The translations under genes and the position numbers were made by a program. From contig NZ_MTJN01000002.1 of NCBI RefSeq assembly GCF_002017865.1, positions 806,001 through 870,000 of the forward strand: DNA of 64,000 bases, read 5' to 3'. Below are positions 1,673-61,869 of this stretch, one piece after another (the first letter of the stretch is position 1; each line of letters begins with the position of its first letter). The notes under the pieces are model-generated. The model was not told the DNA's origin. It searched no databases and was given only the letters and a program-made list of their open reading frames with translations. This DNA comes from Rhodoferax fermentans (lineage in GTDB: Bacteria; Pseudomonadota; Gammaproteobacteria; Burkholderiales; Burkholderiaceae_C).

Positions 1673-1723
1673 AAAAAGGCCTCAAGCCCTTGTTCAACAA
1701 GGGCCTATTACTATGACTTTGAT
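1673..1723 (-). repeat. Palindromic repeat, intergenic copy A
   Basis: The core is a near-perfect palindrome, GCCCTTGTT-C-AACAAGGGC, followed on the minus strand by the family tail TTGAGGCC. It lies just upstream of the ligase start. See the repeat-family finding. Confidence 0.75.
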
Positions 1724-1806
1724 ATCAACAGCTGTGACGGCTCGGGTGATCCGGTTCCACCCCTGCACGAAACAAAGCGACCGCAGTGTTGGGGCCTCAG
1801 CCCCGA

Positions 1807-2415
1807 TCAGGCCGCCAGCCGCGATGACTTGGGCACATGCGCCATCAAAAACGCCATCTGGTCCACGAGGATGCGGCGGTTGCGCAGGATGAAGTCTTCC
1901 CACAGGCTGGGCACATAAGGCGTGTAGAGCAGCGGCATGTTGGCCTGCTCGGGCGTGCGGTGGCTTTTGCGGTGGTTGCAGGGTTTGCAGGCGGTGACCA
2001 CATTCATCCAGGTGTCAATGCCCTTTTGGGCAAACGGGATGATGTGTTCACGTGTCAGGTCGGCCTCGGCAAACCAATCACCACAGTAGGCGCAGATGTT
2101 GCGGTCGCGCGCAAACAATTTGGCATTGGTCAGGCCCGGGCGCAGCTCAAACGGGTTGATGTTGGGCACCCCCTTGGTGCCAATGATGCTAGAGACCGTG
2201 ATGACCGACTGTTTACCGGTGATCGCGTTGTGGCCCCCGTGGAACACGGCCACCTCATGGCCCATTTCCCAGCGGACCTCCTCGGCGGCGTAGTGCAACA
2301 CCGCTTGTTCCAGCGAAATCCACGATTGGGGCAGCCCCTGGGCTGACAGCTTCAAGACTTTCAAAACACGACTCCCAAAAAAGACGTTATCCGAAACCCG
2401 TTCAAAACCTGACAT
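1807..2415 (-). CDS. HNH endonuclease family protein
   Basis: A protein of 202 residues with a central-to-C-terminal HNH/zinc-finger fold: CAYCGDWF, then LTREHIIPFAQKG, then W-N-V-V-T-A-C-K-P-C-N-H-R-K. The two CxxC pairs bind a structural zinc; the REHI histidine, the asparagine and the CNHRK segment make the beta-beta-alpha-metal active site. The N-terminal 90 residues carry no motif I recognise. Homologues of this size are widespread as stand-alone genes in Burkholderiales and are not part of a known restriction system. It is divergent from ribF, with about 160 bases between the starts. Confidence 0.8.
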   Translation of the reverse strand: MSGFERVSDNVFFGSRVLKVLKLSAQGLPQSWISLEQAVLHYAAEEVRWEMGHEVAVFHGGHNAITGKQSVITVSSIIGTKGVPNINPFELRPGLTNAKLFARDRNICAYCGDWFAEADLTREHIIPFAQKGIDTWMNVVTACKPCNHRKSHRTPEQANMPLLYTPYVPSLWEDFILRNRRILVDQMAFLMAHVPKSSRLAA

Positions 2416-2575
2416 TCACCACCAGAACATTTGGCACGCCCCTGAAGGGATGCAGGAAACGCGCCAATATCCATCCCAACACCGGTCTGGGACACAATAT
2501 ACCCCCTTTACGTGTCAAATTGGCGTCAAGCCCACTTGAACTTTGCCTATTGCGCTATTTAAGTTATAACAAAGA

Positions 2576-3571
2576 ATGAAGATTTACAGGGGTTTCAAGC
2601 ATCCGGACATTGCACCGGCGTGTGCCTTGACGATTGGCAACTTTGACGGCGTGCACCGCGGCCACCAGGCCATGCTCTCGCTGCTCAAGGGTGAGGCCCA
2701 GCAACGTGGGGTGCCCAGCTGTGTGCTGACCTTCGAGCCACACCCGCGCGACCACTTTGCCGCCATCACCCACAACCCGGCGCGGGCACCGGCGCGCGTG
2801 GGCACCCTGCGCGACAAACTGATTGATCTGGCGGCCTGTGGTGTCGACCAGATTGTGGTGCTGCCTTTTGACAGCCATCTGGCCAATCTGTCACCGATGG
2901 ACTTCATCAACCAGGTGCTGCGCCGTGGTTTGGGTGCCACCTATGTGCTGGTGGGGGATGACTTCCGTTTTGGTGCACGGCGCTCCGGTGACTATGCGCT
3001 GCTCGACCAGGCCGGGCTGGACCAGGGTTTTGATGTGGCCCGCATGAACAGTTACGAGGTGCACAACCTGCGCGTGTCCAGCTCAGCGGTACGTGAGGCG
3101 CTGGGGCAAGGCCGCATGAAAGACGCCACCCGCCTGATGGGCCACCCCTACCGCATCTCGGGCCATGTGGTGCATGGCCGCAAACTCGGGCGCTCGCTCG
3201 GCTTCAAAACCCTCAACATGCGGTTTGCGCACTGGAAACCGGCCGCCAGTGGCATTTTTGCAGTGCTGGTCTATGGCCTGAGCCCGCAGCCGCTGCGTGG
3301 TGTGGCCAACATGGGCATCCGCCCATCGCTTGACCCCAACGATGTCAACGGCGGGCGTGTGCTGCTGGAAACCCATTGCCTGGACTGGCCAGAGAGCCTG
3401 GGTGCCGAAGGTGCCTACGGCAAAATTGTGCGTGTGGAACTGCTCCACAAGTTACACGAAGAACGCAAATACGCGTCCCTGGACGCGTTGACGGCGGGCA
3501 TCCACCAGGACTGCCTCGATGCCCGCACCTACTTTGACACCCACCCTGAAGCGGGCAGCACCAAAACCTGA
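2576..3571 (+). CDS. ribF: Bifunctional riboflavin kinase / FAD synthetase
   Basis: The 331 residues match the usual length. The N-terminal adenylyltransferase half has the nucleotide-binding motif GNFDGVHRGH at residues 22-31. The C-terminal flavokinase half starts near residue 190 with GHPYRISGHVVHGRKLGR and the LGFKTLN motif. It makes FMN and then FAD from riboflavin in the cytoplasm. ribF next to ileS and lspA is a common proteobacterial order; here three short genes separate them. The ATG has only a weak Shine-Dalgarno-like AAAG upstream, and the upstream stretch is AT-rich, suiting a nearby promoter. Confidence 0.95.
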   Translation: MKIYRGFKHPDIAPACALTIGNFDGVHRGHQAMLSLLKGEAQQRGVPSCVLTFEPHPRDHFAAITHNPARAPARVGTLRDKLIDLAACGVDQIVVLPFDSHLANLSPMDFINQVLRRGLGATYVLVGDDFRFGARRSGDYALLDQAGLDQGFDVARMNSYEVHNLRVSSSAVREALGQGRMKDATRLMGHPYRISGHVVHGRKLGRSLGFKTLNMRFAHWKPAASGIFAVLVYGLSPQPLRGVANMGIRPSLDPNDVNGGRVLLETHCLDWPESLGAEGAYGKIVRVELLHKLHEERKYASLDALTAGIHQDCLDARTYFDTHPEAGSTKT

Positions 3572-3641
3572 GCCCTCTCGGCCTGGTGTGCAGACGGTCT
3601 GTCCGCCCAGCCCCCGTTGTGCCATCCGCTACGATGTCCCC

Positions 3642-4394: not shown

Positions 4395-4462
4395 CCCACC
4401 TAAGATAGCGCTGCATACCTCTCTGTCAATTGTGCTGATAGGCATCACCATCAGGAGTCCCC

Positions 4463-4855: not shown

Positions 4856-4859
4856 CGCC

Positions 4860-5219: not shown

Positions 5220-5388
5220 GACCCAGCCCCACGCCACCGTGCGCCAGCAGGGCCTACGGTAAAATCCACCGTTTCGCGCGGCAACACCGACTGCACAACG
5301 AACTCACCACCCTTGCCTGGACGCTTAGGCACTGGCATTCGTCAAAACTGCCAAGATGCCCGTGCCTACTTTGCCTTTCAGCCGAACC

Positions 5389-12490: not shown

Positions 12491-13500
12491 ACCAGCCCGC
12501 TGCCCTGCCCCCCTACTTGGCGCTGGTTGGCCCCACCGCAGCGGGCAAAACCGCCGCCGCGCTGGCCATTGCACAGCAACACCCGGTCGAGATCATCAGC
12601 ATTGACTCGGCCCTGGTTTACCGGGGCATGGACATTGGCACCGCCAAACCCAGCGCAGCTGAACTGGCCGCCGCACCGCACCATCTGATCAACATCCGCG
12701 ACCCCTTGCACGCCTACAGCGCGGCCGAGTTTGTGGCAGATGCCAGCCAGCTGATCCACGACATCCACACCCGTGGCAAGTTGCCGTTGCTGGTCGGTGG
12801 CACCATGCTGTATCTGAAGGCCCTGCGCCAGGGTCTGGACGACCTGCCCAAGGCCGATGCGGCCGTGCGCGCCCAGATCGAATTGGAAGCCGCGCAACAC
12901 GGCTGGCCCGCGATGCATGCTGAGCTGGCGCAAGTGGACCCGGTCACGGCCGCACGGCTGGCACCTGGCGACTCACAACGCATCTCGCGGGCGCTGGAGG
13001 TGTGGCGCCTCACCGGGCAAACGCTGGCCAGTTTTCACACTAGCAAAAAAGAAGCTACTAGCCCAATGGATACAAGGGCTACAGGCCCAAATGGTGCTGA
13101 AGATGCTGCAACGTCGATGCTGATCTCGCTGGAGCCGCTGGAGCGCAGCTGGCTGCATTTGCGCATTGCCCAGCGTTTTGACGAGATGCTCAGACAAGGC
13201 TTGCTCGACGAGGTGCAGGCCTTGCGCGCGCGCGGTGACCTGAACCCCGATTTGCCCTCGATGCGCTGCGTCGGTTACCGCCAGGTCTGGGAAGCGCTCG
13301 ACGGCCTGTGGCCTATCAGTGAGTTGCGCGACAAAGGCATTTTTGCCACCCGCCAACTCGCCAAACGCCAGATCACCTGGCTACGCAGCATGCCCGAGCG
13401 CCAGGTTGTGGCCTGCGATACACCCGATGCATTGCAACAGGTGCTGGCGCTGGCCAATACCTTTGTGGCGGGTTTGCCCCCAGAGACACTGCGGCACTGA
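12487..13500 (+). CDS. miaA: tRNA dimethylallyltransferase
   Basis: Adds a dimethylallyl group to A37 of tRNAs reading UNN codons. The 337 residues show the P-loop [15 protein letters not shown] near residues 16-30, [19 protein letters not shown], the [11 protein letters not shown] segment and [13 protein letters not shown], and the C-terminal [15 protein letters not shown] and [14 protein letters not shown]. Residues 184-203, between the [10 protein letters not shown] helix and the [17 protein letters not shown] strand, are encoded by a copy of the palindromic repeat. The start overlaps the upstream small peptide gene by four bases. Confidence 0.96.
13036..13096 (+). repeat. Palindromic repeat, in-frame copy C inside miaA
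   Basis: Visible order: GAAGCTACTAGCCC, AATGGATACAAGGGCTAC and AGGCCCAAATGG. It keeps the miaA frame and encodes a Ser/Thr/Lys-rich linker ([19 protein letters not shown]). Confidence 0.8.
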
Positions 13501-14213: not shown

Positions 14214-16074
14214 CTTTGCCGACCCGCACCGCCCACCCGGCGCACCCGACGCCGCAGGCACACCAGGCAGCAGCGCAGCATCGGGCACTTTGCGCGCCAG
14301 TTTCGAGGCACCGCTACACACACTGATCGCCCACACGCCCGAGCAGGTCAAACCTCTGCTAAACGCGGTGGACAACTTTGCCAAGCAAGGCCTGTGGTGT
14401 GTGGGGTATTTACGTTATGAAGCGGCCAGCGCCTTCGATGCGGCACTGCAAACCCACCCAGCAAACGGCCCGCTGGCTTGGTTTGGCGTGTTTGAACAGG
14501 CCCAAACCTGGCCAGAGACGCCAACGGTGGCCACTGCAGCCCGGTCACAAGATGCACCGCCTCCAGCGGCCCCAGGTGGCCCTGGTTCGCAAATTCAGCC
14601 CCAAGACCTGACGCCCACTTCTGTGACTTGGCAGAACCCACTGAGCCACGAGCAGTTCGATAACAACCTGGCCACCATCCACGAGGCGATTGGCGCCGGT
14701 GAGTATTACCAGGTGAACTACACGACCCCACTGCAAGGTGACTTTGTGGGCGACCCGCTGGTGCTGTTCGCACGCCTGCAACAAGCCCAACCCGGTGGTT
14801 ACGCGGCGTTCATTGACACTGGCGCCGAGCAAATCCTGTCCGTTTCACCCGAGCTGTTTTTTGACTGGGACGGCCAGCACATCCTGACCCGGCCAATGAA
14901 AGGCACCGCCCCACGCGGCCAGACGCCGCAGGAGGATGCGGCCTTGGTGCAAGCGCTCACAGCGTCACCCAAGGAACGCGCCGAGAACGTGATGATTGTG
15001 GATTTGCTGCGCAACGACCTGTCGCGCATCGCCCTTCCCCACACGGTGCAGGTGCCGTCCCTGTTTGCCGTGCAGACCCTGCCCACGGTGCACCAGATGG
15101 TGTCGGACGTGACCGCTCAAACCCGCCCCAGTACGAGCTTGAGCGAAGTGTTTGGCGCGCTGTTTCCTTGCGGCTCGATCACCGGCGCACCCAAAGTGCG
15201 GGCCATGCAGGCCATCCACGACCTTGAACCCGAGGCTCGCGACGTCTACTGCGGTGCCATCGGTGTGGTGCGTCCCGGCGGCCACGCCACCTTCAACGTG
15301 GCGATCCGCACGGTGACGCTGTATGGCCAACAAGCCCGCTGCGGTATTGGCAGCGGCATCACCTTTGACGCCACCGCGCCCAACGAATGGCGTGAATGGC
15401 AACACAAACGCGGTTTTCTGGAGCGCGCCAGCGAAGCCTTTCAACTGCTGGAAACCCTGCGTCTGCAGGCCGGTGTGTTTCACCATTTAGGAGCACACTT
15501 GGCAAGATTGGCGAGGGCTGCAGCGCATTTTGGCTATCCTTATGACGAGGGGCGTGTGCGCGCTGCCTTGCAAACCCTGCTGGGCCCCAACACGCCTCAT
15601 CAAGATGACAGCGTTGCCTGGCGGGTGCGCCTGCTGCTGGATGCCCAGGGAACACCGGTGGTTGAGAGGTTTAAGCTAAATCACACCCCAGCCCTCGTAT
15701 CGCTTGGGCTAGCAGCTATTCCTTTTGAAGCAGCACAGAGTGAATTCACCCGCTTCAAAACCACCCGCCGCGCCCACTACGAGGCCTTGGCCCCCACCGA
15801 CCCAGCCGCTTTTGACACCCTGCTCTACAACGAACGTGGTGAACTGACCGAATGCACCCGAGGTAACATCGCGGTGCTGCTGGACGGCCAGTGGCTCACC
15901 CCCGCACTGCACTGCGGCCTGCTGGATGGCGTGGGGCGGGCGCAGTATCTGGCGCAAGGCCGATTAAAAGAAGCCATCATCACCCTGGCCGACCTGCCGC
16001 GTGTGCAGCGCTGGGCATTTGTCAACAGCTTGCGCGGGTGGGTGGATGCGCAGCTGGTGGGCAGGGGCGACTGA
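14197..16074 (+). CDS. pabB: Aminodeoxychorismate synthase component I fused to aminodeoxychorismate lyase
   Basis: A fusion of 625 residues. The first 420 or so are a chorismate-binding enzyme domain with YYQVNYTTPL, GTAPRG, ENVMIVDLLRNDLSRI and PCGSITGAPKVRAMQAI. The remainder is a PabC-like class IV PLP lyase with LLETLRLQAGVFHHLGAHLARL, TLLYNERGELTECTRGN and CGLLDGVGR. Together they convert chorismate to p-aminobenzoate for folate, needing a separate glutamine amidotransferase. The lyase half contains a repeat-encoded segment near residues 492-513. The ATG lies inside the previous gene. Confidence 0.9.
   Translation: MLIRLDFADPHRPPGAPDAAGTPGSSAASGTLRASFEAPLHTLIAHTPEQVKPLLNAVDNFAKQGLWCVGYLRYEAASAFDAALQTHPANGPLAWFGVFEQAQTWPETPTVATAARSQDAPPPAAPGGPGSQIQPQDLTPTSVTWQNPLSHEQFDNNLATIHEAIGAGEYYQVNYTTPLQGDFVGDPLVLFARLQQAQPGGYAAFIDTGAEQILSVSPELFFDWDGQHILTRPMKGTAPRGQTPQEDAALVQALTASPKERAENVMIVDLLRNDLSRIALPHTVQVPSLFAVQTLPTVHQMVSDVTAQTRPSTSLSEVFGALFPCGSITGAPKVRAMQAIHDLEPEARDVYCGAIGVVRPGGHATFNVAIRTVTLYGQQARCGIGSGITFDATAPNEWREWQHKRGFLERASEAFQLLETLRLQAGVFHHLGAHLARLARAAAHFGYPYDEGRVRAALQTLLGPNTPHQDDSVAWRVRLLLDAQGTPVVERFKLNHTPALVSLGLAAIPFEAAQSEFTRFKTTRRAHYEALAPTDPAAFDTLLYNERGELTECTRGNIAVLLDGQWLTPALHCGLLDGVGRAQYLAQGRLKEAIITLADLPRVQRWAFVNSLRGWVDAQLVGRGD
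15672..15733 (-). repeat. Palindromic repeat, in-frame copy D inside the pabB fusion
   Basis: On the minus strand it reads AATAGCTGCTAGCCC, AAGCGATACGAGGGCT and GGGGTGTGATTTAG, in family order but reverse to the gene. On the plus strand it is translated without a stop (KLNHTPALVSLGLAAIPFEA). Confidence 0.7.
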
Positions 16075-16641
16075 GTGCATCCAACGGGCTGGCCGCGCCG
16101 CCCACCACCAACTTAAGCACATACGTGTCAATCAAGATGCTGGAAACAGCCAGAACCACCCCAACGCTGCCCAGATAAGGGGGCTTGGTAGCCAAGGCAA
16201 CTGCACGGCCAGAACTCGATCCCACAACAGCAAGGTGCTCAGCGCCTGATTGAGGGTGGCCACCGACACGTTGCGCTGTGTAGTCAACATGGAGGAAAAC
16301 TGCTGTACCTCCACCGCAACCATGTCACTCGGGTGATGAAAATCTCACCCAATACACGTCAGCCTCTTCTGTGCGCAGGCTATAGTCTTTGTGACGCAAG
16401 ACCTCTCGCCATCAGTCCTGCAACCGGGTCGATTAGGGGAGTTTGGAGAATGGTTTTCATGAGAGGCACAACAACCTTTTTGTTTACACAGCCTTCGGCT
16501 TTTAGATCAGGGCTGCAAGCGACTGTTTGGCGATGGTAGAACACCCGTAAAAACTCGCTTACCCAGCTTTTTATGCCGTCTAGGGCGGGCTGCTCAGGAT
16601 AAGCACTTGACTCCATCACGTTCTACATCAAAAGGACACCA
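16075..16641. other. Gene-poor accessory stretch
   Basis: No intact gene is supported between the pabB stop and the frameshifted gene at 16642. Base composition shifts from GC-rich to more AT-rich near 16.3 kb. The left part holds a degraded membrane-protein fragment on the minus strand (listed separately). Short frames at 16333-16539 (plus) and 16380-16619 (minus) have no recognisable motif. Confidence 0.5.
16132..16323 (-). pseudogene. Degraded membrane-protein fragment, perhaps an ABC exporter transmembrane segment
   Basis: The minus-strand frame reads VEVQQFSSMLTTQRNVS, then TLNQALSTLLLWDRVLAVQL, before running into unrelated sequence. A second frame just downstream (ending near 16080) continues with hydrophobic residues (GVVLAVSSILIDTYVLKLVVG). 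This looks like one membrane segment broken by a frameshift. The pattern faintly resembles the helix pair before the ATPase of peptidase-containing ABC exporters. That match is from memory only and weak. Confidence 0.3.
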
Positions 16642-17054
16642 ATGAGTTCGACCGTGTTTTCACGATATTTTCAGGCGTTGTAACGTTCGTTCTCGGCCAG
16701 GTTTTTGTGAAACCGGTTATTGATCCTGTCCAAGACTTGAAGAAAACGATTAGGCAGATTTCCCACTGCCTTATTGAACGTGCAAACGTAATTGCAAATC
16801 CCGGCATTCCAACTTCCGCAGTGAAGCGTGAAAATTCGCAAGATCTGCGGTGCCTTTCATCTCAGCTGCAAGCCCATCTATATTTGGTTCCGCTGTATGG
16901 CATCATGGGGAAGGTTTTCATTCTTGCGTCAAAGCAAAGCATACGTGCCGCTTCCATTGCATTAATTGGTCTCTCGAACAGCATACATCAGCCATCCGAG
17001 CATATTTACAATGGAAGTGAAAAGCGTGTTGAGACCATATGCGACTCGCAATGA
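16642..17054 (+). pseudogene. Membrane-anchored hypothetical protein, frameshifted at its fifth codon
   Basis: An ATG at 16642 preceded by AAAAGGACACC opens a frame that stops after 13 codons. The adjacent frame is open from before that ATG to 17054. It encodes EFDRVFTIFSGVVTFVLGQVF, a membrane anchor, and then DPVQDLKKTIRQISHCLIERA, IPTSAVKRENSQDLRCLSSQLQ and the tail KRVETICDSQ. One base lost or gained between ATGAG and TTCGACC would join start and body. The only in-frame start left, GTG 16707, would remove the anchor. It may be a pseudogene, a sequencing error or a real restart. The body is like a family of uncharacterised proteobacterial proteins; function unknown. Confidence 0.55.
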
Positions 17055-17207
17055 ATCTTTCTAGCAGAGGGTGATCGGTTGCAAAAAAATTCTTGACGTT
17101 GAACCCATTACTTCAGTGAACCACCACACGCTGCACCTGTGGTTCTCTCAGTTTTGCGACGGTAACCCCTTAATTAAAATCTTATATCTTCTTCTTTAGC
17201 AAGACCC

Positions 17208-17891
17208 GTGAGTAACACAAAAAATATCCTCCTTTTGGTAGGCCGAGATGATTGGCAAAAAGATGAGGCTTTGAATTTAGTTTTACTCAATAAGTTAACA
17301 AAATACAATATCGAAATAATTTGGGAAGACCCTGCAGCCAAAGTCATTCATCATCTCAGAAAAATTGAGAACAAAATAGGCATTCATGAGAAAACAGTAA
17401 AACACCTGAATCTCCGGATAGTTCAGATAGTTTATGGATTATTAAACCCATCTTATCTTGCCTATCTCTATAAAAGAAGAAGCAAATCTGTGTTATCTCG
17501 TTGCCATTCATTAGCAAAAATGATTTGCAAACGTGGTATTGCGGCACAGACAATCATTCTTTCACGATCTTCTGGCGGGCGAGTTGCATCGTTAATTGCA
17601 GATGAATTGGGAATCAAACATATTGTTTGTTTAGGCTACCCTTTCAATCATCCAGATCACGGGGATGAACCCGAACGATATGCACACTTGGTACATTTAA
17701 AAACACCAATGCTCATTATTCAAGGGATTGATGATGCGTATGGCGGCTTAGAAATAAAATACAAGTATGCTTTTAGTGAAAACATAGAGCTCTCTTTTTT
17801 CAAATCCGATCATAACTTCGACATTTCCGATGCAATGGCTCACGAAATCGTCGAGTTGATTGAACGTGTCACGGGTTTGGGCCAAAAATAA
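17208..17891 (+). CDS. Alpha/beta-hydrolase-like protein (KANL3/Tex30-like), AT-rich
   Basis: Starts at GTG and encodes 227 residues. The C-terminal half resembles the KANL3/Tex30 type of alpha/beta hydrolase: IILSRSSGGRVASLIADE (nucleophile elbow, Ser of SSGG), HIVCLGYPFNHPD, HLVHLKTPMLIIQGIDDAYGG (acid) and KSDHNFD (histidine). The N-terminal half is basic and unusual (HLNLRIVQIVYGLLNPS). Base composition and codon choice (AAA, TTA, ATA frequent) differ sharply from all neighbours, so horizontal transfer is likely. No partner genes are seen. Confidence 0.65.
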   Translation: MSNTKNILLLVGRDDWQKDEALNLVLLNKLTKYNIEIIWEDPAAKVIHHLRKIENKIGIHEKTVKHLNLRIVQIVYGLLNPSYLAYLYKRRSKSVLSRCHSLAKMICKRGIAAQTIILSRSSGGRVASLIADELGIKHIVCLGYPFNHPDHGDEPERYAHLVHLKTPMLIIQGIDDAYGGLEIKYKYAFSENIELSFFKSDHNFDISDAMAHEIVELIERVTGLGQK

Positions 17892-17998
17892 CAAAACTTG
17901 ACGCTAGACGACATGACGTGCCCTCATTGAAGTAAAAGTTAACCCGCCTTGCAGACCGCACGCACTCTACAGGGATGACCCGGTGCCGGACAATGTAT

Positions 17999-18052
17999 AA
18001 AAATGGCACGCTATCCCTGATGTTACCTGGGCTAGCAGCTATACATTCTGAA
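17999..18052 (-). repeat. Palindromic repeat, intergenic copy P
   Basis: On the minus strand it shows ATAGCTGCTAGCCCAG, a loop and a GGGATAGCG-type tail. The stem is imperfect, making this one of the more diverged copies. Confidence 0.5.
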
Positions 18053-18098
18053 TCTTCCAACAGCTACTTCGGACGCTTCAAAATCACGCGCTGCGGCA

Positions 18099-18118
18099 AC
18101 ACCGCCGTGCGGCGGTGT
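18099..18118. terminator. Hairpin downstream of dctD
   Basis: Perfect 8-bp stem, ACACCGCC-GTGC-GGCGGTGT, eleven bases beyond the dctD stop. There is no clear T-run on either side, so it may be a weak or factor-assisted terminator, or a message-stabilising hairpin. Confidence 0.4.
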
Positions 18119-18128
18119 CTTCGTGCGT

Positions 18129-24577: not shown

Positions 24578-27184
24578 ATGTTTGCTCTGCTCACCACCTT
24601 CTCCTGGCAGGAATTGCGCCAGCACCCCTGGCGCAATGCAGCTGCCGTGCTGGCGGTGACGCTGGGTGTGGCGCTGGCGTTTTCTGTGCACCTGATCAAC
24701 AACTCGGCGCTCGACGAGTTTGCCCAGGCAGCCCGCGCGGTAGGTGGCCAGAGTGACCTGGAAGTGTCTGGCGTACAAGGTAACTTTGACCAGGCTGTCT
24801 ACAAAAAGATAGCACAAACCCCAGGCGTGACAACGGCCTCACCGATTCTGGAGATCAACAGTTATGTGTTGACGCCACAGGGCAAACGCGCGTTGCGGGT
24901 GGTGGGGGTGGACGCCTTGAGTGTGTTTGCCACCTCACCGGACCTGGTGCCCTTGCCCAAAGCTGCGCCGGTGGACCGCTGGGTGCTGTTTGCGCCGGGG
25001 CAGATGTTTTTGAACGCGGCGGCCAAACGCCTTCTCTGGCCCACAGGCGCCGGGCCTGCAAGCTCAAGCAGCGGCCTCCAGGTACAAAGTGGCATGACCT
25101 GGGTGGATGCCCAGGTGGCTGGCAGCGTGCGCGCCACGGGCCCAGCACTGGCGGTGATGGACATCGGCGCCGCGCAGGACCTGTTTGACAAACCCAAGCA
25201 GCTCACCCGCATCGACCTGCGGCTGGACAAAGGTGTGGACCGTGATGCTTTGGCCCGCCAGTTACAGGCGGCCCCCGACTGGCCCGCTGATGTGCGGGTG
25301 GCGCAGCCCCAAGAGGCCGAGTCCCAGATCAACAACCTGTCACGTGCCTACCGGGTCAACCTCACGGTGCTGGCGCTGATTGCGCTGTTCACCGGCGCGT
25401 TTCTGGTGTTTTCGGTGCTGTCGCTGAGTGTGGCCAAACGCGCGCAGCAATTTGCACTGCTGGGCGTGCTGGGCCTGTCCGGTCGTGACCGGCTCAAGCT
25501 GGTGTTGTGGGAGTCACTGGCGCTGGGCCTGGTGGGCAGCCTGGCCGGGCTGGCGCTGGGCACTGGGCTGGCGGCGCTGGCGCTGGGCCTGCTCGGTGGT
25601 GACCTGGGCAGCGGCTTTTTCTCGGGCGCCTCACCGAGCCTGCAGTTCAGCCCTGTGGCCGCTTTGGTCTATGGTGCTTTGGGTGTGGCAGCGGCGTTGG
25701 TGGGCGGCTGGTGGCCAGCACGGGTGGCACAACAACTGCCACCCGCCCAAACCCTCAAAGGCCTGGGCAACCTGGGTGTGGGGACCAAGTCGCACTGGAT
25801 CAGTTTACTTTTGATAGCTTTTGGCGCTTTATTGACAAGGGCTCCACCCGTTTTTGGCATACCTTTGGCGGCCTATGTGTCGGTCGGGATGCTGCTGGTG
25901 GGTGGCATCACCGCCCTGCCGTGGTTGATTGGCCTGCTGCTGGGCTGGCTGGCACCCCGGCTGGCACGCCAGACCTTGCCACTGCTGGCGGTGGAACGCG
26001 CCCGGCGCCAGCGCGACACCGCGGCGGTGGCTGTCAGCGGTGTCGCGGCCTCGCTGAGCCTGGCGGTGGCGTTAACGGTGATGGTGGCGAGTTTTCGCGA
26101 CTCGGTCACCCAGTGGCTGGACCGGTTGCTGCCCGCGGACCTGTATGTGCGCAGCGCGGTGGGCATGAGCGCCAGCGACACCGTGTTTTTTGACCCGGAC
26201 TTTGTGCAAGCGGCGGCCCAGCTGCCGGGGGTGAGCAAGCTGCAACCACAACGCCTGTTGCCCCTGAGCCTCAGCCCCAGCCTGCCCGCAGTGGCGCTGC
26301 TGGCACGTGAGCTGGGTGACCCGACGCGCAGCCTGCCGCTTCTGGCGCCGCCGCTGCCGGTGCCACCCGGCCAGATTGGGGTCTACGTGAGTGAGGCGGT
26401 GGTCGATTTACATGGCGCCCAGGTCGGCCAGAGCTTGCCCGCGCTTTCCAAGGCTTTTAGGCCTCTATCCCTTATGGATCAAGGGGGTAGAGCTACATTT
26501 TTTGTGGCAGGTGTGTGGCGCGACTACGCCCGCCAGTCGGGATCGATCGCGATCGATCTGGCAGATTTTCGGCGCCTCACCAACGACCAGCGCGCCAACG
26601 ACCTGGCGCTGTGGCTGGACCAGCCCGAGGACACGGCTCGGGTGCAGCAGGCCCTGCAGGCACTGGCCGGGCCGCAGGCAAACCAAGGTGCCGATGCCCA
26701 GCGTGGCACCGGTGGCCTGCTGGAGTTTGGCAGCTCGGCCCAGATCCGAGCCATCTCGCTCAAAATTTTTGACCGCAGTTTTGCGGTGACCTACTGGCTG
26801 CAGGCGGTGGCGATTGGCATTGGCCTGTTTGGGGTGGCGGCCAGTTTCAGCGCGCAGGTGTTGTCGCGGCGCAAAGAGTTTGGCCTGCTGGCCCACCTGG
26901 GGCTGACGCGCCGCCAGATCCTCAGTGTGGTGGCGCTCGAAGGCCTGGCCTGGACCACGCTGGGTGCCATCGCGGGCCTGGGCCTGGGCCTGGTGGTGGC
27001 GCTGGTGTTGGTGCTGGTGGTCAACCCGCAGAGTTTTCACTGGACCATGGACCTGATGCTGCCCTGGGCCAAGTTGCTGACGCTGTGCCTGTCGGTCGTG
27101 GCAGCAGGCACCCTGACCGCTTGGCTGGCAGCCCGCGCCGCTGCAGGCCAGGACGCGGTGTTGGCGGTGAAAGAGGATTGGTGA
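24578..27184 (+). CDS. Large FtsX-type ABC transporter permease (YbbP-like)
   Basis: The 868 residues have an N-terminal membrane helix, a periplasmic domain of the MacB/LolC type, three helices near residues 262-400, two more near 420-460, a second large periplasmic domain and three C-terminal helices. This duplicated FtsX layout (10 helices) is typical of YbbP. It probably extracts a hydrophobic substrate from the membrane using an ATPase of the LolD type; the only such ATPase in the window is at 13551. Two segments, near residues 410-427 and 625-644, are encoded by palindromic repeats. Confidence 0.88.
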   Translation: MFALLTTFSWQELRQHPWRNAAAVLAVTLGVALAFSVHLINNSALDEFAQAARAVGGQSDLEVSGVQGNFDQAVYKKIAQTPGVTTASPILEINSYVLTPQGKRALRVVGVDALSVFATSPDLVPLPKAAPVDRWVLFAPGQMFLNAAAKRLLWPTGAGPASSSSGLQVQSGMTWVDAQVAGSVRATGPALAVMDIGAAQDLFDKPKQLTRIDLRLDKGVDRDALARQLQAAPDWPADVRVAQPQEAESQINNLSRAYRVNLTVLALIALFTGAFLVFSVLSLSVAKRAQQFALLGVLGLSGRDRLKLVLWESLALGLVGSLAGLALGTGLAALALGLLGGDLGSGFFSGASPSLQFSPVAALVYGALGVAAALVGGWWPARVAQQLPPAQTLKGLGNLGVGTKSHWISLLLIAFGALLTRAPPVFGIPLAAYVSVGMLLVGGITALPWLIGLLLGWLAPRLARQTLPLLAVERARRQRDTAAVAVSGVAASLSLAVALTVMVASFRDSVTQWLDRLLPADLYVRSAVGMSASDTVFFDPDFVQAAAQLPGVSKLQPQRLLPLSLSPSLPAVALLARELGDPTRSLPLLAPPLPVPPGQIGVYVSEAVVDLHGAQVGQSLPALSKAFRPLSLMDQGGRATFFVAGVWRDYARQSGSIAIDLADFRRLTNDQRANDLALWLDQPEDTARVQQALQALAGPQANQGADAQRGTGGLLEFGSSAQIRAISLKIFDRSFAVTYWLQAVAIGIGLFGVAASFSAQVLSRRKEFGLLAHLGLTRRQILSVVALEGLAWTTLGAIAGLGLGLVVALVLVLVVNPQSFHWTMDLMLPWAKLLTLCLSVVAAGTLTAWLAARAAAGQDAVLAVKEDW
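25807..25858 (+). repeat. Palindromic repeat, in-frame copy E inside the permease gene
   Basis: Visible: GATAGCTTTTGGCGC, TTTATTGACAAGGGC and a CCACCCGTTTTTGG tail. It encodes a hydrophobic stretch (LLIAFGALLTRAPPVFG) inside a membrane segment; stem conservation is moderate. Confidence 0.6.
26450..26506 (-). repeat. Palindromic repeat, in-frame copy F inside the permease gene
   Basis: On the minus strand: AATGTAGCTCTACCCCC, TTGATCCATAAGGGATAG and AGGCCTAAAAG. On the coding strand it is read as KAFRPLSLMDQGGRATFF in the second periplasmic domain. Confidence 0.75.
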
Positions 27185-34811: not shown

Positions 34812-34814
34812 GCA

Positions 34815-39096: not shown

Positions 39097-39152
39097 CTCT
39101 AGTTTTTGAAGCTATCCACCCATATACTACATGGGCTAGAGCCTATTTCCAG
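39097..39152 (+). repeat. Palindromic repeat, intergenic copy K
   Basis: Reads GAAGCTATCCACCCAT, ATACTACATGGGCTAG and AGCCTATTTCC. The stem is ACCCAT/ATGGGC. It ends just past the bchJ stop, so it lies between convergent genes. Confidence 0.7.
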
Positions 39153-42288: not shown

Positions 42289-44907
42289 ATGACCGACCAC
42301 ACCCTGCCACACACCCCCATGATGACCCAGTACCTGGGCCTCAAAGCGGATCACCCCCACACCCTGCTGTTCTACCGCATGGGCGACTTTTACGAGCTGT
42401 TTTATGCCGATGCCGAAAAAGCCGCGCGCCTGCTCAACATCACCCTGACGCAGCGTGGCCAGAGCGCAGGGCAGCCGGTGGTGATGGCCGGGGTGCCATT
42501 CCACTCGGTCGAGACCTATCTGGCGCGGCTGATCAAGCTCGGTGAGTCGGTGGCGATTTGTGAACAGGTCGGCGACCCGGCCACAGCCAAAGGCCCGGTC
42601 GAGCGCAAGGTGGTGCGGGTGGTCACGCCCGGCACCCTGACCGATCTGGAATTGCTCAACGACAAGACCGAGGCGCTGCTGCTCTCGGTGCACCAAGGCC
42701 CGCGCAACAGCTGCGGCCTGGCCTGGCTCAGCGTGACCCAGGGGGTGGTGCATCTGGCCGAATGTGCGCTGGACGACTTGGCCAACTGGGTATTGCGCGT
42801 GGGTCCGGGTGAGCTGATCTTCAGCGCCGGGGCCACACCAGCGTTTGAGGCGCGGCTGCGCGCGATTCCAGTCACCACACCGCTGTCGATCTCCGTGCGG
42901 CCAGACTGGCAGTTTGACACCGGCCTGGGCCAACGCACCCTCACCCAACACCTCAACACCGCCAGCCTGGCGCCCTGGCACGCGCAAGAACTGGTGCTGG
43001 CCCAGGCGGCGGCAGCCGCGCTGCTGAGTTACACCGAACACACCCAAGGCCGGGCACTCACGCACATCCATAGCGTGCAGGTGCAGCGCGAGGGCGATCT
43101 GATCGACCTGCCGCCCACCACCCGGCGCAACCTGGAGCTGGTGCAGACGCTGCGCGGTGAAGATTCACCTACGCTGTTCTCCTTGCTCGACACCTGCCAG
43201 ACCGGCATGGGCAGCCGCCTGCTCAAAAGCTGGCTGCTCTCACCCCGGCGCGACCGCAGCGAAGCGATACAACGCCACCGCGCGATTGAGGCGCTGCGCA
43301 GCGGCCCCACGCTGTCAGCCGGTGCTGGCCCGTGGGACAAACTGCGCCAGCAGCTCAAGGGCAGCACCGATGTACAACGCATCACCGCACGCATCGCGCT
43401 GCGCCAGGTGCGTCCGCGTGAGCTGGTGGGCTTGCAAGTCACGCTCCAAAAAACAGAGCTACTGGCCCCCGTGATACAAGGGCTAGAGGCCTACTTGACG
43501 CAAATTTCTCAGAACCTGCTGCCGCCCGTCGGTTGCGCCGAGTTGTTGCGCGCCGCGATCGACGCCGAGCCCGCCGCGCTGGTGCGCGACGGCGGTGTGA
43601 TCGCCAGCGGCTTTGATGCCGAACTCGACGAGTTGCGCGCCATCCAGACCAATTGCGACGGCTTTTTGCTGGACCTGGAAACCCGCGAACGGGCCCGCAC
43701 CGGCATCAGCAACCTGCGGGTGCAGTTCAACAAGGTGCACGGCTTTTTCATCGAGGTGACGCAAGGCCAGGCCAGCAAGGTGCCCGACGACTACCGTCGC
43801 CGCCAGACCCTGAAAAACGCCGAGCGTTTCATCACGCCCGAACTCAAAGCCTTTGAAGACAAGGCCCTGAGTGCGCAAGAGCGTGCCCTGGCGCGGGAAA
43901 AATGGCTCTACGAGCAGCTGCTGGACCAGTTGCAAGCCTATGTCCCCGCCCTCACCCGGCTAGCCGACGCGCTGGCCACACTCGACGCCCTGTGCGCCCT
44001 GGCCGAGCGCAGCCTCACCCTGGACTGGTGTGCGCCGCAGTTTGTCAAAGAGCCGTGTATCGACATCGACGCCGGTCGTCACCCGGTGGTGCAGGCGCGC
44101 CTGGCTGAACTGAGCTCAGGTGCATTCATCGCCAACGACACCCGCCTGAGTGTCAAACAGCGCATGCAAATCATCACCGGCCCCAACATGGGCGGTAAAT
44201 CGACCTACATGCGCCAGATTGCGGTGATTGTGCTGCTGGCCAGCATGGGCAGTTATGTGCCTGCCAGCGCCTGCCGACTGGGGCCGATCGACGCCATCCA
44301 CACCCGCATCGGCGCGGCCGACGACTTGGCCAACGCCCAGTCCACCTTCATGCTGGAGATGTTGGAAGCCGCACAAATCTTGAACGCCGCCACACCCAAC
44401 TCCCTGGTGCTGATGGACGAGATTGGCCGCGGCACCAGCACCTTTGACGGCCTGGCGCTGGCATCAGCCATTGCCACCCAGTTACACGACAAAACCCAGG
44501 CTTACACCCTGTTTGCCACCCACTACTTTGAGCTGACCGAGTTCCCGGCCAGCCACCATGCTGCGATCAACGTGCATGTGAGCGCGGCCGAAAGTGGCCG
44601 CGACATCGTGTTCCTGCACGAGATCCAGCCGGGACCTGCCAGCAAGAGTTACGGTATCCAGGTGGCGCGCCTGGCGGGTATGCCCGCTGCGGTGGTCAAC
44701 CACGCGCGCCACACGCTGGAAGCGCTGGAAGCCCAGGCCAGCCAGCACCAGGCCCAGGTCGATCTGTTTGCGGCACCTGCCGCTACAGAGGTCATAGCTG
44801 AAAGCCCAGTCGAAGCCTGGGCTAAAGCCCTCAATCCTGATGATTTGAGTCCGCGTGAGGCGCTGGAGGCGCTGTACCAGCTCAAGAAGCTGAGCGTCCA
44901 AGGATAA
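42289..44907 (+). CDS. mutS: DNA mismatch repair protein MutS
   Basis: The 872 residues cover all MutS domains. The mismatch-wedge motif is [13 protein letters not shown] near residue 28, connector and lever/clamp domains follow, then the ATPase with Walker [14 protein letters not shown] near residue 631, [16 protein letters not shown] and THYFELT. It recognises mispairs with MutL. Two palindromic repeats are translated within it: one in the lever region (near residues 387-406) and one near the C-terminal tail before the [16 protein letters not shown] tetramer/interaction segment. It is divergent from hcp. Confidence 0.97.
43448..43507 (+). repeat. Palindromic repeat, in-frame copy G inside mutS
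   Basis: AGAGCTACTGGCCCCCG, TGATACAAGGGCTAG and AGGCCTACTTGACG show the full family order. It encodes [19 protein letters not shown] in the lever region. Confidence 0.8.
44786..44846 (+). repeat. Palindromic repeat, in-frame copy H inside mutS
   Basis: TCATAGCTGAAAGCCCAG, TCGAAGCCTGGGCTA and AAGCCCTCAATCC. Stem AGCCCAG/CTGGGCT is intact. It encodes [16 protein letters not shown]. Confidence 0.7.
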
Positions 44908-47740: not shown

Positions 47741-48928
47741 TCAGTCCAGCAGCGCCGCGTAGACCATGTCGCGGAACAACATGCGGTAGTACTCACGCTG
47801 GTTCGGGGCCTGCAACATCAAGCAGGCAAACATGTCCAGCGCCGGATCGACAAAAAACGAGGTGCCAGCCAGCCCACCCCAGAAATAGGTGCCCACCGAA
47901 CCCGGCACCGGCGCCACACCCAGGTGTTTGCGCACCGCAAAACCCAGGCCAAAACCGTGCCCGGCGGGCAACAGCGCACGAGAGCCACCCGGTGCCACCG
48001 GGATGTCACCCAGGTGGTCGGTGGTCATGAAGTCCACCGTGCGCGGGCCCAGCAGGCGCACACCGTCGAGTTCACCGCGGTTCAGCAAAAAATGCAGAAA
48101 ACGTGCGTAGTCCTGCGCGGTGGAGATCAGGCCACCACCGCCCGAGGCCAGTGTCGCGTCGGTACGCACGTCGATCACCTTCATCTGCAGGCCACCATCG
48201 GGGTCGCGGGCAAAGGGTTCGGCAATGTGGTCGTGAAATTCGGGCGGCACGGTGAAGGCGGTGTTGGGCATACGCAGTGGCTCAAACAACTGCTCTTGTA
48301 AAAACTGCTGCAGCGGCTGCGCGCTGATCACCTCGATGACGCGGCCCAGCACATCGGTGGCACGGCTGTACTCAAACATCTGGCCGGGCTGGTACATCAG
48401 CGGCAGCGCGGCAAGTTGTTGGGTGAAATCGGCCAGGCTGCGATCGCGTGAACCCAGGCGCAGCTGCGCGTACTGGCGCTGCACCGGGCCGCTGCCGAGA
48501 AACTCGTAGGTCAGGCCGGCCGTGTGGCGCAGCAGGTCGTGCACCGTGGCGTCACGCATCACCGGCTGCAGCTCGGTGGCCTCACCGTTCATCGCCACGT
48601 TTTGCTGCGCAAATTCGGGCAGGTATTTGGCCACCGGGTCGGCCAGCAACAGGCGTCCCTGCTCCACCAGCATCATGGCCGCCACCGACACAATCGGTTT
48701 GGTCATCGAGTAGATGCGAAAACGCGCATCGTTGTGCATGGCTTCACCGGTGCGCGGGTTGAGCTGGCCGACGCTGTCCATCAAGGCCAGCTTGCCGTGG
48801 CGTGCCACCACGGCCACCGCGCCGGGCAGGCGTTGGTCAGCCACCTCACGCTGCAGAACAGCCATCAGGCGCGCCAGGCGCTCGCTGCTCAGCCCCACTT
48901 TTTCAGGAGAAACGTTTTGAAGAGTCAT
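47741..48928 (-). CDS. Serine hydrolase of the beta-lactamase/EstB family
   Basis: The 395 residues show the class C/penicillin-binding fold: the SxxK motif in FRIYSMTKPIVSVAAMM, the YxN-type residue in YSRATDVLGRVIE, and the third motif region near HGFGLGFAVRK. No signal peptide is apparent, so an esterase role inside the cell is likely. A palindromic repeat sits next to its start. Confidence 0.9.
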   Translation of the reverse strand: MTLQNVSPEKVGLSSERLARLMAVLQREVADQRLPGAVAVVARHGKLALMDSVGQLNPRTGEAMHNDARFRIYSMTKPIVSVAAMMLVEQGRLLLADPVAKYLPEFAQQNVAMNGEATELQPVMRDATVHDLLRHTAGLTYEFLGSGPVQRQYAQLRLGSRDRSLADFTQQLAALPLMYQPGQMFEYSRATDVLGRVIEVISAQPLQQFLQEQLFEPLRMPNTAFTVPPEFHDHIAEPFARDPDGGLQMKVIDVRTDATLASGGGGLISTAQDYARFLHFLLNRGELDGVRLLGPRTVDFMTTDHLGDIPVAPGGSRALLPAGHGFGLGFAVRKHLGVAPVPGSVGTYFWGGLAGTSFFVDPALDMFACLMLQAPNQREYYRMLFRDMVYAALLD

Positions 48929-48929
48929 A

Positions 48930-48982
48930 TCAAAAATATAGCTATAGGCCCTTTATAAATAAGGGCTAGAGGTCAAAATGGC
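48930..48982 (+). repeat. Palindromic repeat, intergenic copy L
   Basis: AATATAGCTATAGGCC, CTTTATAAATAAGGGCTAG and AGGTCAAAATGGC. It shows the family order clearly, between the hydrolase start and the channel gene. Confidence 0.85.
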
Positions 48983-49076
48983 GTAAAAATCAAAAATCCG
49001 CAGCATGCATCTTGCGTCAAGGTATTGTGACGACAGGACGGTGTGGGACCTCTCGCTCAGACCAAATTGGCGCGGC

Positions 49077-57810: not shown

Positions 57811-57883
57811 GGTGAAGGCGGCTGCGTGACTGGCACTCAGGTCCGTTTGGGTTTATTCATAGCGGCGGCTATGATACTTGGCT

Positions 57884-59133: not shown

Positions 59134-59195
59134 GAAATGTGCCGCTAGCCCTCTTAAAATAAGGGCTGATAGCTCCTATAACTATAGTCGTTTCA
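59122..59195 (-). repeat. Palindromic repeat, intergenic copy N
   Basis: On the minus strand: GGAGCTATCAGCCCTTA, TTTTAAGAGGGCTAGCG and GCACATTTC. The 3' end of mog overlaps its edge. A second AT-rich inverted piece (ATAGCTCCTATAACTATAG) follows. Confidence 0.75.
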
Positions 59196-59229
59196 CTGCT
59201 ATCACAACCCCTCAATAAATCGCATCATC

Positions 59230-60246
59230 ATGCCGATCTACCGCTGCAACAAGTGTGGATTCATTGCTGAAACCGTCCCGCTGCTGCCTGACAGCAAAAT
59301 CCCTTGCGCACGCTGCGCCCACCCCAGCAGTGTGTATGACACGGTTTTTTTCGCCGAGAAGCTGGTTGAAAAGTATTTTGCTGCCTTGCGCGAGATCGAG
59401 GCGCTGAAGGCGGCTGACCAGCCCGCAGCACCCGCCAACCCCATTGCAAGCAGCCCGGCACCGTCGGCCATCCCGCCCGCCATGCCTTTGAACCAGCTCA
59501 ACATACACAACACCAGCCAACTGGCCACCGCTGAGCAACATCTGCCGCTCCAACAGTGGTTTGCCGCCCGCCAGATCGAGGCCCGGTTTGACCACGCAGC
59601 CGTTGATACCACCGGCTTTTTTGACGACGCCGCGCGGGCTCTGAGTGACAACTTTGCACTGTATGGTGAACTGCTCAATCGCATCCGCTGGGCCTACCGC
59701 AACAGCCACAGCAACGTCAATCTGGAACTGGCCAACCTGAGCCAGAAGGACGCACAGGCGCTCAACAACCTGTGCCGCCAGTTTCACAGCCACTCGTTGT
59801 TTGCCACTTACCGTTACCAGAAAGTCGAAAAAATCGTCCGCCTGGGCTTGCAGACCGCTCCCACGGTGCGGCAGTTTTTTGAGGGCGGCTGGCTGGAGTG
59901 GTTTGCTTTGATCACGCTGCTTGAGCAGCTCAAAACCAAGAACCGTGTCTTTTCATGTGCCCGGGGTGTGAAAGTGGTGTTTGCCAACGACGACCTGCAT
60001 GAGATCGACGTGATGGCGCTGGTCAACGGCCAGACACCGGTCTACATCGAATGCAAAACCGGTGAGTTCCGCCGCGAGATCGACAAGTTTTTGCGGCTCA
60101 AAAAACGCCTTGGAATTCCGCGCCAGCAGTTCATCATATGCGCCAGCGAGCTCAGCGCCGAACAGGCTGCCGGGCTGTCGGCCATGTACGAGCTGAACTT
60201 TGTGAACCACGACACACTGGCTGACAAGCTGCAGGCCATTCTCTGA
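59230..60246 (+). CDS. Zinc-ribbon PD-(D/E)XK nuclease-like protein (DUF1887/Card1-like core)
   Basis: The 338 residues start with a zinc ribbon (Cys6, Cys9, Cys26, Cys29), then a Pro/Ala-rich linker, a helical region, and a C-terminal nuclease fold. The nuclease motif has HEIDVMAL (Glu258, Asp260) and ECKTG (Glu274, Lys276) followed by the helix FRREIDKFLRLKKRLGI, as in Card1/Can2 and other DUF1887 enzymes. No CARF domain is apparent, and no CRISPR array or cyclic-oligonucleotide synthase is nearby. A nuclease function is inferred. Confidence 0.7.
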   Translation: MPIYRCNKCGFIAETVPLLPDSKIPCARCAHPSSVYDTVFFAEKLVEKYFAALREIEALKAADQPAAPANPIASSPAPSAIPPAMPLNQLNIHNTSQLATAEQHLPLQQWFAARQIEARFDHAAVDTTGFFDDAARALSDNFALYGELLNRIRWAYRNSHSNVNLELANLSQKDAQALNNLCRQFHSHSLFATYRYQKVEKIVRLGLQTAPTVRQFFEGGWLEWFALITLLEQLKTKNRVFSCARGVKVVFANDDLHEIDVMALVNGQTPVYIECKTGEFRREIDKFLRLKKRLGIPRQQFIICASELSAEQAAGLSAMYELNFVNHDTLADKLQAIL

Positions 60247-60306
60247 CTTTTTCGGCCTTAGCCCTTGTCCAAAAAGAGCTGTTAGCCACAAATACTGAAG
60301 CTATTT
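60247..60306 (-). repeat. Palindromic repeat, intergenic copy O
   Basis: On the minus strand it starts GCTTCAGTATTTGTGGCTAAC and continues AGCTCTTTTTGGACAAGGGCT. The core is imperfect. It fills the gap to the cysE stop. Confidence 0.55.
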
Positions 60307-61074
60307 ACCCACCAGCTGGGTGAGTTTGTCGGCCTCAAAATGTTCGGCCAGGGTGGCGTCGCCGGGCACACAGTTGGTTTTGTCGCGGCTGGCCTGCAAG
60401 GTGTCGATGGCTTTCCACAACATTGCAATCTGGTGTTCGTGGCTGGACGCGTTGTCGATCAAACCGCGCATGGCCTGGCTCAACGGGTCGTCGCTTTGGG
60501 TCACACCGTAGGCAGAAAAACCCATTTTGGAGGCAGCCTCTTCGCGTTTGACATCGAGCTCAGCCTGGATGATGCGCGCCGGGTTGCCCACTGCCGTGGC
60601 ACCAGCTGGCACCGGTTTGGTCACCACCGCGTTTGACCCGACCTTGGCGCCGTCACCCACGGTGAAGCCTCCGAGCACCTGGGCACCCGCGCCCACCACC
60701 ACACCGCACCCCAGCGTCGGGTGGCGTTTGGCGCCCTTGTAGAGCGAGGTGCCGCCCAACGTCACACCCTGGTAGATGGTGCAGTCGTCACCAATTTCGG
60801 CGGTTTCCCCCACCACCACACCCATGGCATGGTCAAAAAACACGCGGTCACCAATGGTGGCGCCGGGGTGGATTTCGATGCCAGTCAAAAAGCGGGTGAT
60901 GTGGGAGACAAAACGCCCGAGCCATTTCAAACCATGCGTCCAGCAGGCATGGGCCAGCCGGTGCAGGATGACCGCATGCAAGCCGGGGTAACAGGTCAAC
61001 ACCTCCCAGGTGCTGCGGGCAGCCGGGTCACGTTCAAGAATGCACTGGATATCGGATCGGATTCGGGACAACAT
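60301..61074 (-). CDS. cysE: Serine O-acetyltransferase
   Basis: The 257 residues form an N-terminal helical part and a left-handed beta helix of hexapeptide repeats ([75 protein letters not shown]). It makes O-acetylserine for cysteine. The 3' tail from [20 protein letters not shown] onward is longer than in many homologues. It ends at the repeat copy O. Confidence 0.94.
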
Positions 61075-61083
61075 GGTTTGAGT

Positions 61084-61869
61084 CTAGTGGGATTCAGGCA
61101 AGGGCGTGGACGGCGCGGCCTTGAGCATCATTTTGGCCATGCCACGCAGGATGTGGATTTCTTCCTGGGTGACACCGGCACGGTTGAACAGCTGGTTGAG
61201 CCGGGGCATGAGTTTTTTGGGCGCCTGCGGGTCGAGGAAATCAATCGCCACCAGTGCCTGCTCCAGATGCGCCAGCATGCCTGCCACCTGCGCCGCATCA
61301 GCCAGGGCGGGCGCGGCCGTGGCCGATTGCACCGGGTAGCCGCCCAGCGCCTCGCGCCAGTCATAAGCAATCACCTGCAGCGCTGCAGCCAGGTTCAGCG
61401 AGCCAAACTGCGGGTTGCTCGGGATGCTCAGGCACACATGGCAGCGGTACACATCCTCGTTGGCCATGCCAAAACGCTCCGAGCCAAACAGGAAAGCCAC
61501 CCCAGAGTTGGATGCTTTTTCGGCCTCCAGCCCTTGTTCTGATTGGGCTAGCAGCTCCTGTTTCACGAGCGACTGGAAATGCTCACGTGGCCGCACCGTG
61601 GGTGGACCAAAGTCGCGCGGGGTCATGGCGGTGGCGCACAGGTGGCTCATGCCATCCAACGCCTCATCGAGCGTGTCGACAATGCGGCAGTTCTTGAGCA
61701 CATCGGTGGCGCCGCTGGCGCGCTGGATGGTTTCCTCACGGCGCAGCACATTGGCCCAGCGTGGCGCCACCAGCACCAGATCGTCAAAACCCATGGTTTT
61801 CATGGCGCGCGCGGCGGCGCCGACATTGCCGGCATGGCTGGTGTTGATCAGGATGAATCGGGTCTTCAT
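61084..61869 (-). CDS. trmJ: tRNA (Cm32/Um32) methyltransferase
   Basis: The 261 residues form a SpoU-type knot: INTSHAGNVGAAARAMKTMGFDDLVLVAPRW at the start, FLFGSERFGMANEDVYRC and SIPSNPQFGSLNLAAALQVIAYDW, then a C-terminal tail with a dimerisation helix. Residues near 102-119 are encoded by repeat copy I. The start is divergent from suhB, 112 bases away. It acts at tRNA position 32. Confidence 0.94.
   Translation of the reverse strand: MKTRFILINTSHAGNVGAAARAMKTMGFDDLVLVAPRWANVLRREETIQRASGATDVLKNCRIVDTLDEALDGMSHLCATAMTPRDFGPPTVRPREHFQSLVKQELLAQSEQGLEAEKASNSGVAFLFGSERFGMANEDVYRCHVCLSIPSNPQFGSLNLAAALQVIAYDWREALGGYPVQSATAAPALADAAQVAGMLAHLEQALVAIDFLDPQAPKKLMPRLNQLFNRAGVTQEEIHILRGMAKMMLKAAPSTPLPESH
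61515..61566 (-). repeat. Palindromic repeat, in-frame copy I inside trmJ
   Basis: On the minus strand: GGAGCTGCTAGCCCAAT, CAGAACAAGGGCTGG and AGGCCGAAAAAG. It runs in the same direction as the gene and is translated as LLAQSEQGLEAEKASN. Confidence 0.85.

Follow-up and report, generated by a model that had tools for sequence, protein, structure and literature searches.

The chromosome of Rhodoferax fermentans carries a short imperfect palindrome in many copies, some between genes and some within them as part of the translated protein, and our analysis suggests that this element is probably a chromosomal motif that is recognised by its sequence, is kept in place by base substitution, and would be read by a putative trans-acting factor in a manner reminiscent of DNA uptake sequences. 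We analysed a stretch of 64,000 nucleotides (assembly GCF_002017865.1, contig NZ_MTJN01000002.1, positions 806,001 to 870,000), referred to as the window, to which all positions below refer unless a record is named. The element belongs to a family of repeats with a 45 bp core, extending up to ~60 bp; its core consensus is ATAGCTnCTAGCCCTTn7AAGGGCTAGAGGCC, A/T-rich at both ends. The genome of the window is called G000; other G numbers denote further genomes and L numbers individual sequence records.

With a covariance model trained on 14 copies, 16 places in the window score at least 21.7 bits, and the next distinct one reaches only 10.1 bits; this support is partly circular, because 14 of the 16 window copies trained the model. 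With up to two mismatches, AGCTNNTAGCCCTT matches the window 18 times (some matches lie outside the copies) versus 2.86 times in shuffled sequence, and none of 100 shuffles reaches 18; for GGGCTAGAGGCC there are 11 matches versus 6.06, and five of 100 shuffles reach 11. Rfam gives no match in the window. The model and our gene calls bear out the claim of an earlier note on this DNA, made from the sequence alone, that there are 16 copies, eight within genes and eight intergenic; the model likewise upholds its claim that the family is genuine, and by the strict-pattern genome counts given below the family is found in other Comamonadaceae. The copies, with their covariance-model scores, and the two genes that host two copies each are as follows.

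1673..1717, minus strand: copy between co-oriented genes, intergenic; 43.8 bits
8083..8127, plus strand: copy in ileS, in-place type; 30.9 bits; block present in all 29 family orthologues
13048..13092, plus strand: copy in miaA, in a variable loop, type unclear; 44.3 bits
15678..15722, minus strand: copy in the pabB/aminodeoxychorismate lyase fusion gene, in-place type; 37.5 bits
18001..18045, minus strand: intergenic copy, convergent genes; 37.9 bits
24578..27184, plus strand: gene for an FtsX-like ABC permease, host of two copies
25811..25855, plus strand: copy in the FtsX-like permease gene, site 1, in-place type; 21.7 bits
26455..26499, minus strand: copy in the FtsX-like permease gene, site 2, compatible with an old insertion; 40.0 bits
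34817..34861, minus strand: intergenic copy; 39.3 bits; orthologous interval of 61-64 bp in four relatives
39105..39148, plus strand: intergenic copy, convergent genes; 31.1 bits, outside the training set
42289..44907, plus strand: mutS, host of two copies
43452..43496, plus strand: copy in mutS, site 1, in-place type; 44.3 bits
44791..44835, plus strand: copy in mutS, site 2 (C-terminal linker), in-place type; 40.6 bits
48935..48979, plus strand: intergenic copy; 46.9 bits
55827..55871, plus strand: intergenic copy; 40.8 bits
59135..59179, minus strand: intergenic copy; 42.0 bits
60248..60292, minus strand: intergenic copy, convergent genes; 37.5 bits
61517..61561, minus strand: copy in trmJ, compatible with an old insertion; 43.8 bits

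Across the whole genome, all 150 candidates that were scored, out of 2325 first-look candidates, have E <1e-5. In a 464 kb sample made up of the window and 20 evenly spaced stretches of the same genome (400 kb), with 13 opposite-strand duplicates removed from 72 matches, there are 75 copies: 43 intergenic, 30 genic and two across a gene end. Extrapolation gives ~720 copies per genome, or ~660 from the 400 kb without the window. Genes were called by our own codon-usage script (coding fraction 0.83). The genic copies were assessed with a weight matrix built from 61 distinct copies, a set free of called genic copies of the scanned sequence (33 intergenic copies from the stretches and the window, plus 30 top genome hits of unchecked genic status, with two in common). 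Over 308 called genes, 30 sites score at least 12 bits with this matrix and 24 score at least 20 bits; in 40 synonymous shuffles, which preserve every protein and its codon composition, the corresponding means are 0.8 and 0.35, with a maximum of 2. The 30 sites include all eight genic window copies, the weakest being mutS site 2 (13.0 bits) and ileS (14.7 bits). Since the shuffles give 0.8 sites where the real genes have 30, the genic motif is a feature at the level of the DNA and not a by-product of the proteins.

The host reading frame stays open through the copy at all eight genic sites of the window, which is the in-frame translation expected of Rickettsia palindromic elements (RPEs). The earlier note had stressed this absence of stops, and it stands, but frame keeping is less remarkable than it appears, since in either orientation one frame of the consensus is free of stops. 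Sixteen of the 30 genic copies in the 464 kb lie on the strand of their gene, 11 in the stop-free frame, five in a frame with stops and none in the third; of the 14 on the opposite strand, only two use the stop-free frame, whereas 11 use a frame with one consensus TAA and one uses the third. Stop avoidance therefore accounts better for the same-strand set than for the opposite-strand set. At mutS site 1 the consensus TAG is replaced by GAG.

The same note had read the genic copies as in-frame insertions of 15-20 residues, after the manner of RPEs, and had proposed that a like peptide at the same place in relatives would refute this. At five of the eight sites (mutS twice, ileS, FtsX site 1 and pabB) relatives without the motif in their DNA do carry a peptide there, and of equal length, so insertion is unsupported in general; the part of the claim that survives concerns trmJ and FtsX site 2, which fit old insertions, while miaA is unclear. 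As a general account of the window copies, RPE-like insertion is refuted by the lack of length change at most genic sites.

In mutS, the block at site 1 is present in all 80 Comamonadaceae orthologues, eight of which have extra residues beside it; site 2 is covered by 79 orthologues (the incomplete L095 being left out), two of them with four extra residues. Rows with very different GC-rich codons keep the same length, and in comparison with E. coli MutS neither site is an insertion. Several genera have the rare codons of site 1 (CTA CAA AAA ACA GAG CTA...) in common: codon 386 is CTA in 47 of 81 rows, versus a column mean of 0.25, and the GC content at third codon positions is 0.56 at the site versus 0.82 for the whole gene. 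The same loop holds an extra peptide, REGGNPKLPDALDPRLRGDD, in the MutS of Ramlibacter albus (L116), which presumably resembles a translated repeat of another family, and two mutS records from metagenome-assembled genomes (L077 and L079) have 32 extra residues directly behind the motif.

In ileS the block is found in 29 of 29 family orthologues, some genera using motif codons there and others unrelated GC-rich ones; L207 and L219 carry a few extra codons. In alignments of IleS with PDB entries the compared protein is longer at the place of the copy, so these show only the absence of an extra block here. None of 29 genus orthologues lacks the block at FtsX site 1, and alignment with nine proteins from nine other families shows no corresponding gap. 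Residues 492-511 of the pabB product have no gaps among the window protein and 120 homologues, and the motif-less G003 and G021 (12 of 28 positions) equal in length the motif-bearing relatives (18-21 of 28), the G005 row being left out since its reading breaks off at the site. Between G000 and G004, 12 of the 16 window sites fall within one alignment, and 10 of those 12 are gap-free.

The remaining sites are where a mobile RPE-like repeat that inserts in frame into genes finds its evidence. Precisely where the copy lies, TrmJ exceeds its E. coli counterpart by 14 residues, and at the protein level two of 120 close homologues lack 12 residues there. At FtsX site 2 the protein exceeds nine homologues from nine other families by 9-10 residues; motif-less Rhodoferax, however, have the same length there within one residue (the incomplete rows L256 and L259 are left out). 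The miaA loop is longer too, although this loop is variable, other genera already bear the motif but not the 11 extra residues that the window has beside it, and whether the gap falls inside or behind the motif is a choice of alignment. With five of eight sites unchanged in length, and with dialects that differ at orthologous sites of fixed length, we regard RPE-like insertion as quite unlikely to explain the family.

The intergenic copies also argue against it. Orthologous intervals were sought for seven of the eight intergenic window copies, and flanking genes were found in relatives for four of them (nine comparisons). The motif is present in eight of the nine (21-26 of 28 positions), and the ninth, in the low-copy genome G002, holds a likely, decayed relic (17 of 28 positions) in an interval of 62 bp versus 64 bp. 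These nine comparisons, from four of the seven intervals tried, contain no empty site of the kind that a miniature inverted-repeat transposable element would leave, and interval lengths agree within 7 bp apart from one that is 80 bp longer in G004. That longer interval is the counterpart of window positions 48899-49076, and the motif is in both. At 16075-18128 there are ~2 kb without a called gene and without a longer alignment to G004; the copy at 18001 lies near the edge.

Placement between genes is uneven. Among the 43 non-genic copies whose neighbours were both called, the flanking genes are convergent for 14, co-oriented for 28 and divergent for one, against 30, 139 and 45 available gaps of at least 45 bp (214 in total); the copies thus shun divergent gaps and favour convergent ones, and 33 of 43 lie within 50 bp of the 3' end of a gene. 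A position at gene 3' ends is compatible with an intrinsic terminator, and these figures are what would be expected if the element were a transcription terminator or 3' mRNA hairpin whose genic copies are chance or relics. We nevertheless find that account improbable: genic copies are far above chance (30 versus 0.8), the stem covaries little within the genome, and its sequence is uniform there, which pairing alone does not require. In numbers, 395 of 520 stem cells are paired, versus ~386 in shuffles, and 15 stem changes are two-sided versus 134 one-sided; with so little compensation, it is the sequence rather than the pairing that seems to be kept. A function as RNA was set aside for the same low level of covariation within the genome.

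In relatives, copies were counted with a strict 28-position pattern allowing up to three mismatches, the reversed pattern serving as control; zeros by this count may hide weaker copies, the covariance model hitting six times in G019, once in G028 and twice in G029. Thirty of 150 family genomes match, the window's own included, with up to 258 copies and a reversed control of zero, as do 17 of 36 genomes in the genus Rhodoferax. An order-wide draw of 300 genomes gave four matches, all from the window's family (four of the nine family genomes drawn) and none among 291 genomes of other families, where the reversed control matched once (G447).

This distribution bears on whether the element is a repetitive extragenic palindromic (REP) element mobilised by a REP-associated tyrosine transposase (RAYT, a Y1 transposase). 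The element is, like REPs, a small palindrome at gene ends with hundreds of copies, and the single Y1 transposase match of the genome has one degenerate copy within 400 bp (L009, 27 bits). However, repeat abundance does not follow the RAYT gene: all 22 Rhodoferax genomes compared have a Y1 match, and 12 of them have no strict-pattern match, 11 of these also lacking a covariance-model match (G019 has six). Scanning 12 other Y1 loci gave nothing convincing, with a single hit of 10.8 bits; this test is weak, as several of the loci belong to genomes that lack the repeat or to other families. REPs are moreover extragenic by name, and mobilisation would leave the in-place genic copies unexplained; a REP/RAYT system seems very unlikely here.

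The motif has lineage dialects. GCGC/GCGC is seen in other genera and in Rhodoferax G010, CCC/GGG in G000, G004 and G024, and G005 has intermediate GC/GG forms. Within one genome the dialect is largely the same in genic and intergenic copies, though numbers are small outside G000: in G000, 30 of 34 intergenic copies and 14 of 17 genic ones are CC/GG, and in G010 three of three intergenic and four of four genic copies are GC/GC. From a sequence that is uniform, lineage-specific and common to genic and intergenic copies we infer recognition by sequence. The strength of the match at a genic site also follows genome-wide copy number, with Spearman coefficients of 0.88 at FtsX site 2 (n=29), where protein length is nearly fixed, 0.64 at miaA (n=30) and 0.62 at FtsX site 1 (n=30), each n counting the window's own genome.

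Homogeneous dialects within genomes would also arise if genes were overwritten in place, whether through ectopic gene conversion or through the annealing of single-stranded repeat DNA at the replication fork. Such replacement preserves length, and changes are clustered inside copies next to conserved flanks, as at FtsX site 2 in G000 and G004. Against overwriting, genic copies retain protein-compatible codons, the GC/GG intermediates suggest stepwise substitution, and short divergent copies are poor recombination substrates; we hold it to be unlikely.

Returning to a sequence-recognised motif kept by substitution, we envisage that a putative trans-acting factor of these Comamonadaceae recognises the motif by its sequence, and that copies would arise, decay and switch dialect in place through point substitution and not insertion, under genome-wide selection or drive, with genic copies settling where the protein tolerates them. 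The most likely drive would be preferential exchange of motif-bearing DNA, by analogy with the DNA uptake sequences of Neisseriaceae, and a second candidate is a chromosome-organising protein that would bind the motif. Old insertions may lie behind a minority of sites, namely trmJ and perhaps FtsX site 2.

Several observations weigh against this account. The exact half-site AAGGGCTAG, the single candidate half-site tried, is not abundant outside full copies: it occurs three times in the 64 kb on both strands, always inside copies. Intergenic copies of G005 are mixed in dialect. The tie to genome-wide copy number is weak for ileS (rho 0.36, p 0.05, n=30), and the tree has only four changes of genome-wide motif presence: independent pairs agree in three of three cases for FtsX site 2 (sign test p 0.25) and in two of three, with one tie, for FtsX site 1 (p 0.5), so that with so few independent events the tie is not significant on the tree. 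Only 20 of 81 mutS rows at site 1 and 12 of 80 at site 2 score above all 60 synonymous shuffles. The extra residues of TrmJ, and perhaps those at FtsX site 2, have the look of insertions. Among the 13 stem pairs there is one, the loop-closing T-A, whose degree of pairing only six of 500 shuffles match or exceed. The reader protein, uptake and binding are all putative here, and the motif is far longer than the 10-mer uptake sequence (PMC3630211).

Comparison with known systems sharpens both sides. The DNA uptake sequence of Neisseriaceae is a 10-mer with thousands of copies and lineage dialects; it occupies permissive regions of core genes and, in inverted pairs, terminators; where it can lie is restricted by a stop codon in one of its frames, and for Simonsiella overlapping pairs with dyad symmetry have been reported (PMC3630211). 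High copy number, dialects and presence both within and between genes, as expected of an uptake sequence, are all found for our motif, which is similar also in its placement at gene ends; it differs in being a full dyad of 45-60 bp and not a 10-mer unit, and in being known here from sequence alone. RPEs are described as insertions of ~150 bp with open reading frames (PMC10969869); like them our motif is a palindromic repeat translated in frame in genes, and unlike them it leaves protein length unchanged in most of its genic window copies.

Fragments of the element have apparently been noticed before. A motif scan of 2017 gives GCTTAT(N)5AAGCG in Acidovorax ebreus (114 copies) and ATAGCT(N)22CAAAAG in Polaromonas naphthalenivorans (125), with the most pairs, 140, in R. 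ferrireducens T118; both are mostly intergenic (4% and 14% in genes), the A. ebreus pairs being convergent in 44 cases versus divergent in four, and they are listed merely as potential novel motifs (PMC5217627). Judged by letters and spacing, these pairs are apparently parts of the same element; the relevant part of that paper does not describe the full element, its dialects, genic sites at orthologous positions or an origin in place. A word search of the text of the REP/RAYT paper PMC3733652 found none of six Comamonadaceae genus names; four copies of a BRE repeat, known here by listing and not by sequence, are listed in R. ferrireducens (PMC3110155), and the part of the R. ferrireducens genome paper concerned with palindromes mentions clustered regularly interspaced short palindromic repeats (CRISPR) alone (PMC2755013). 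In literature searched mainly at the level of titles and abstracts we found no published account of coding copies, dialects or in-place origin, and the coding copies and dialects appear to be unreported.

The motif also occurs on mobile DNA. Viral contigs have no match to the exact pattern, and phage records have one, in a record labelled Salmonella enterica serovar Typhimurium. The sole plasmid record matched by a CCC-dialect query is NZ_CP019241.1, from Rhodoferax antarcticus, with one CCC-dialect copy at 14642-14681 (95% over 40 bases). On pCTX-M3 (NC_004464.2; L296 1504-1548) the motif lies inside a DUF1010 reading frame between dfrA12 and aadA2 of a class 1 integron; it is found in 1807 plasmid records, with a DUF1010 reading frame under the match in 26 of 30 listed. 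Six copies at ~319 bp spacing stand in the integron region of an IncP plasmid (LC623924.1; L297 2046-3686). The DUF1010 matches hint that the dfrA12-aadA2 cassette is of Comamonadaceae origin, and the DUF1010 family may be partly a translated repeat.

Stated in its boldest form, and as a tentative proposal, the motif would be a long, palindromic chromosomal watermark of Comamonadaceae with dialects, serving as an uptake or exchange signal or bound by an unknown chromosome-binding protein; by substitution it would write itself into conserved genes and persist there at orthologous codons in different genera. The comparison with orthologues sets right the tempting view that translated repeats are insertions, and the dialect difference within Rhodoferax is a natural experiment for finding the reader, by comparing the proteins of GCGC-type, CCC-type and motif-less relatives. 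If the genic copies are written in place, DNA-level selection would shape core proteins such as MutS, IleS, MiaA, FtsX and PabB in part of the family.

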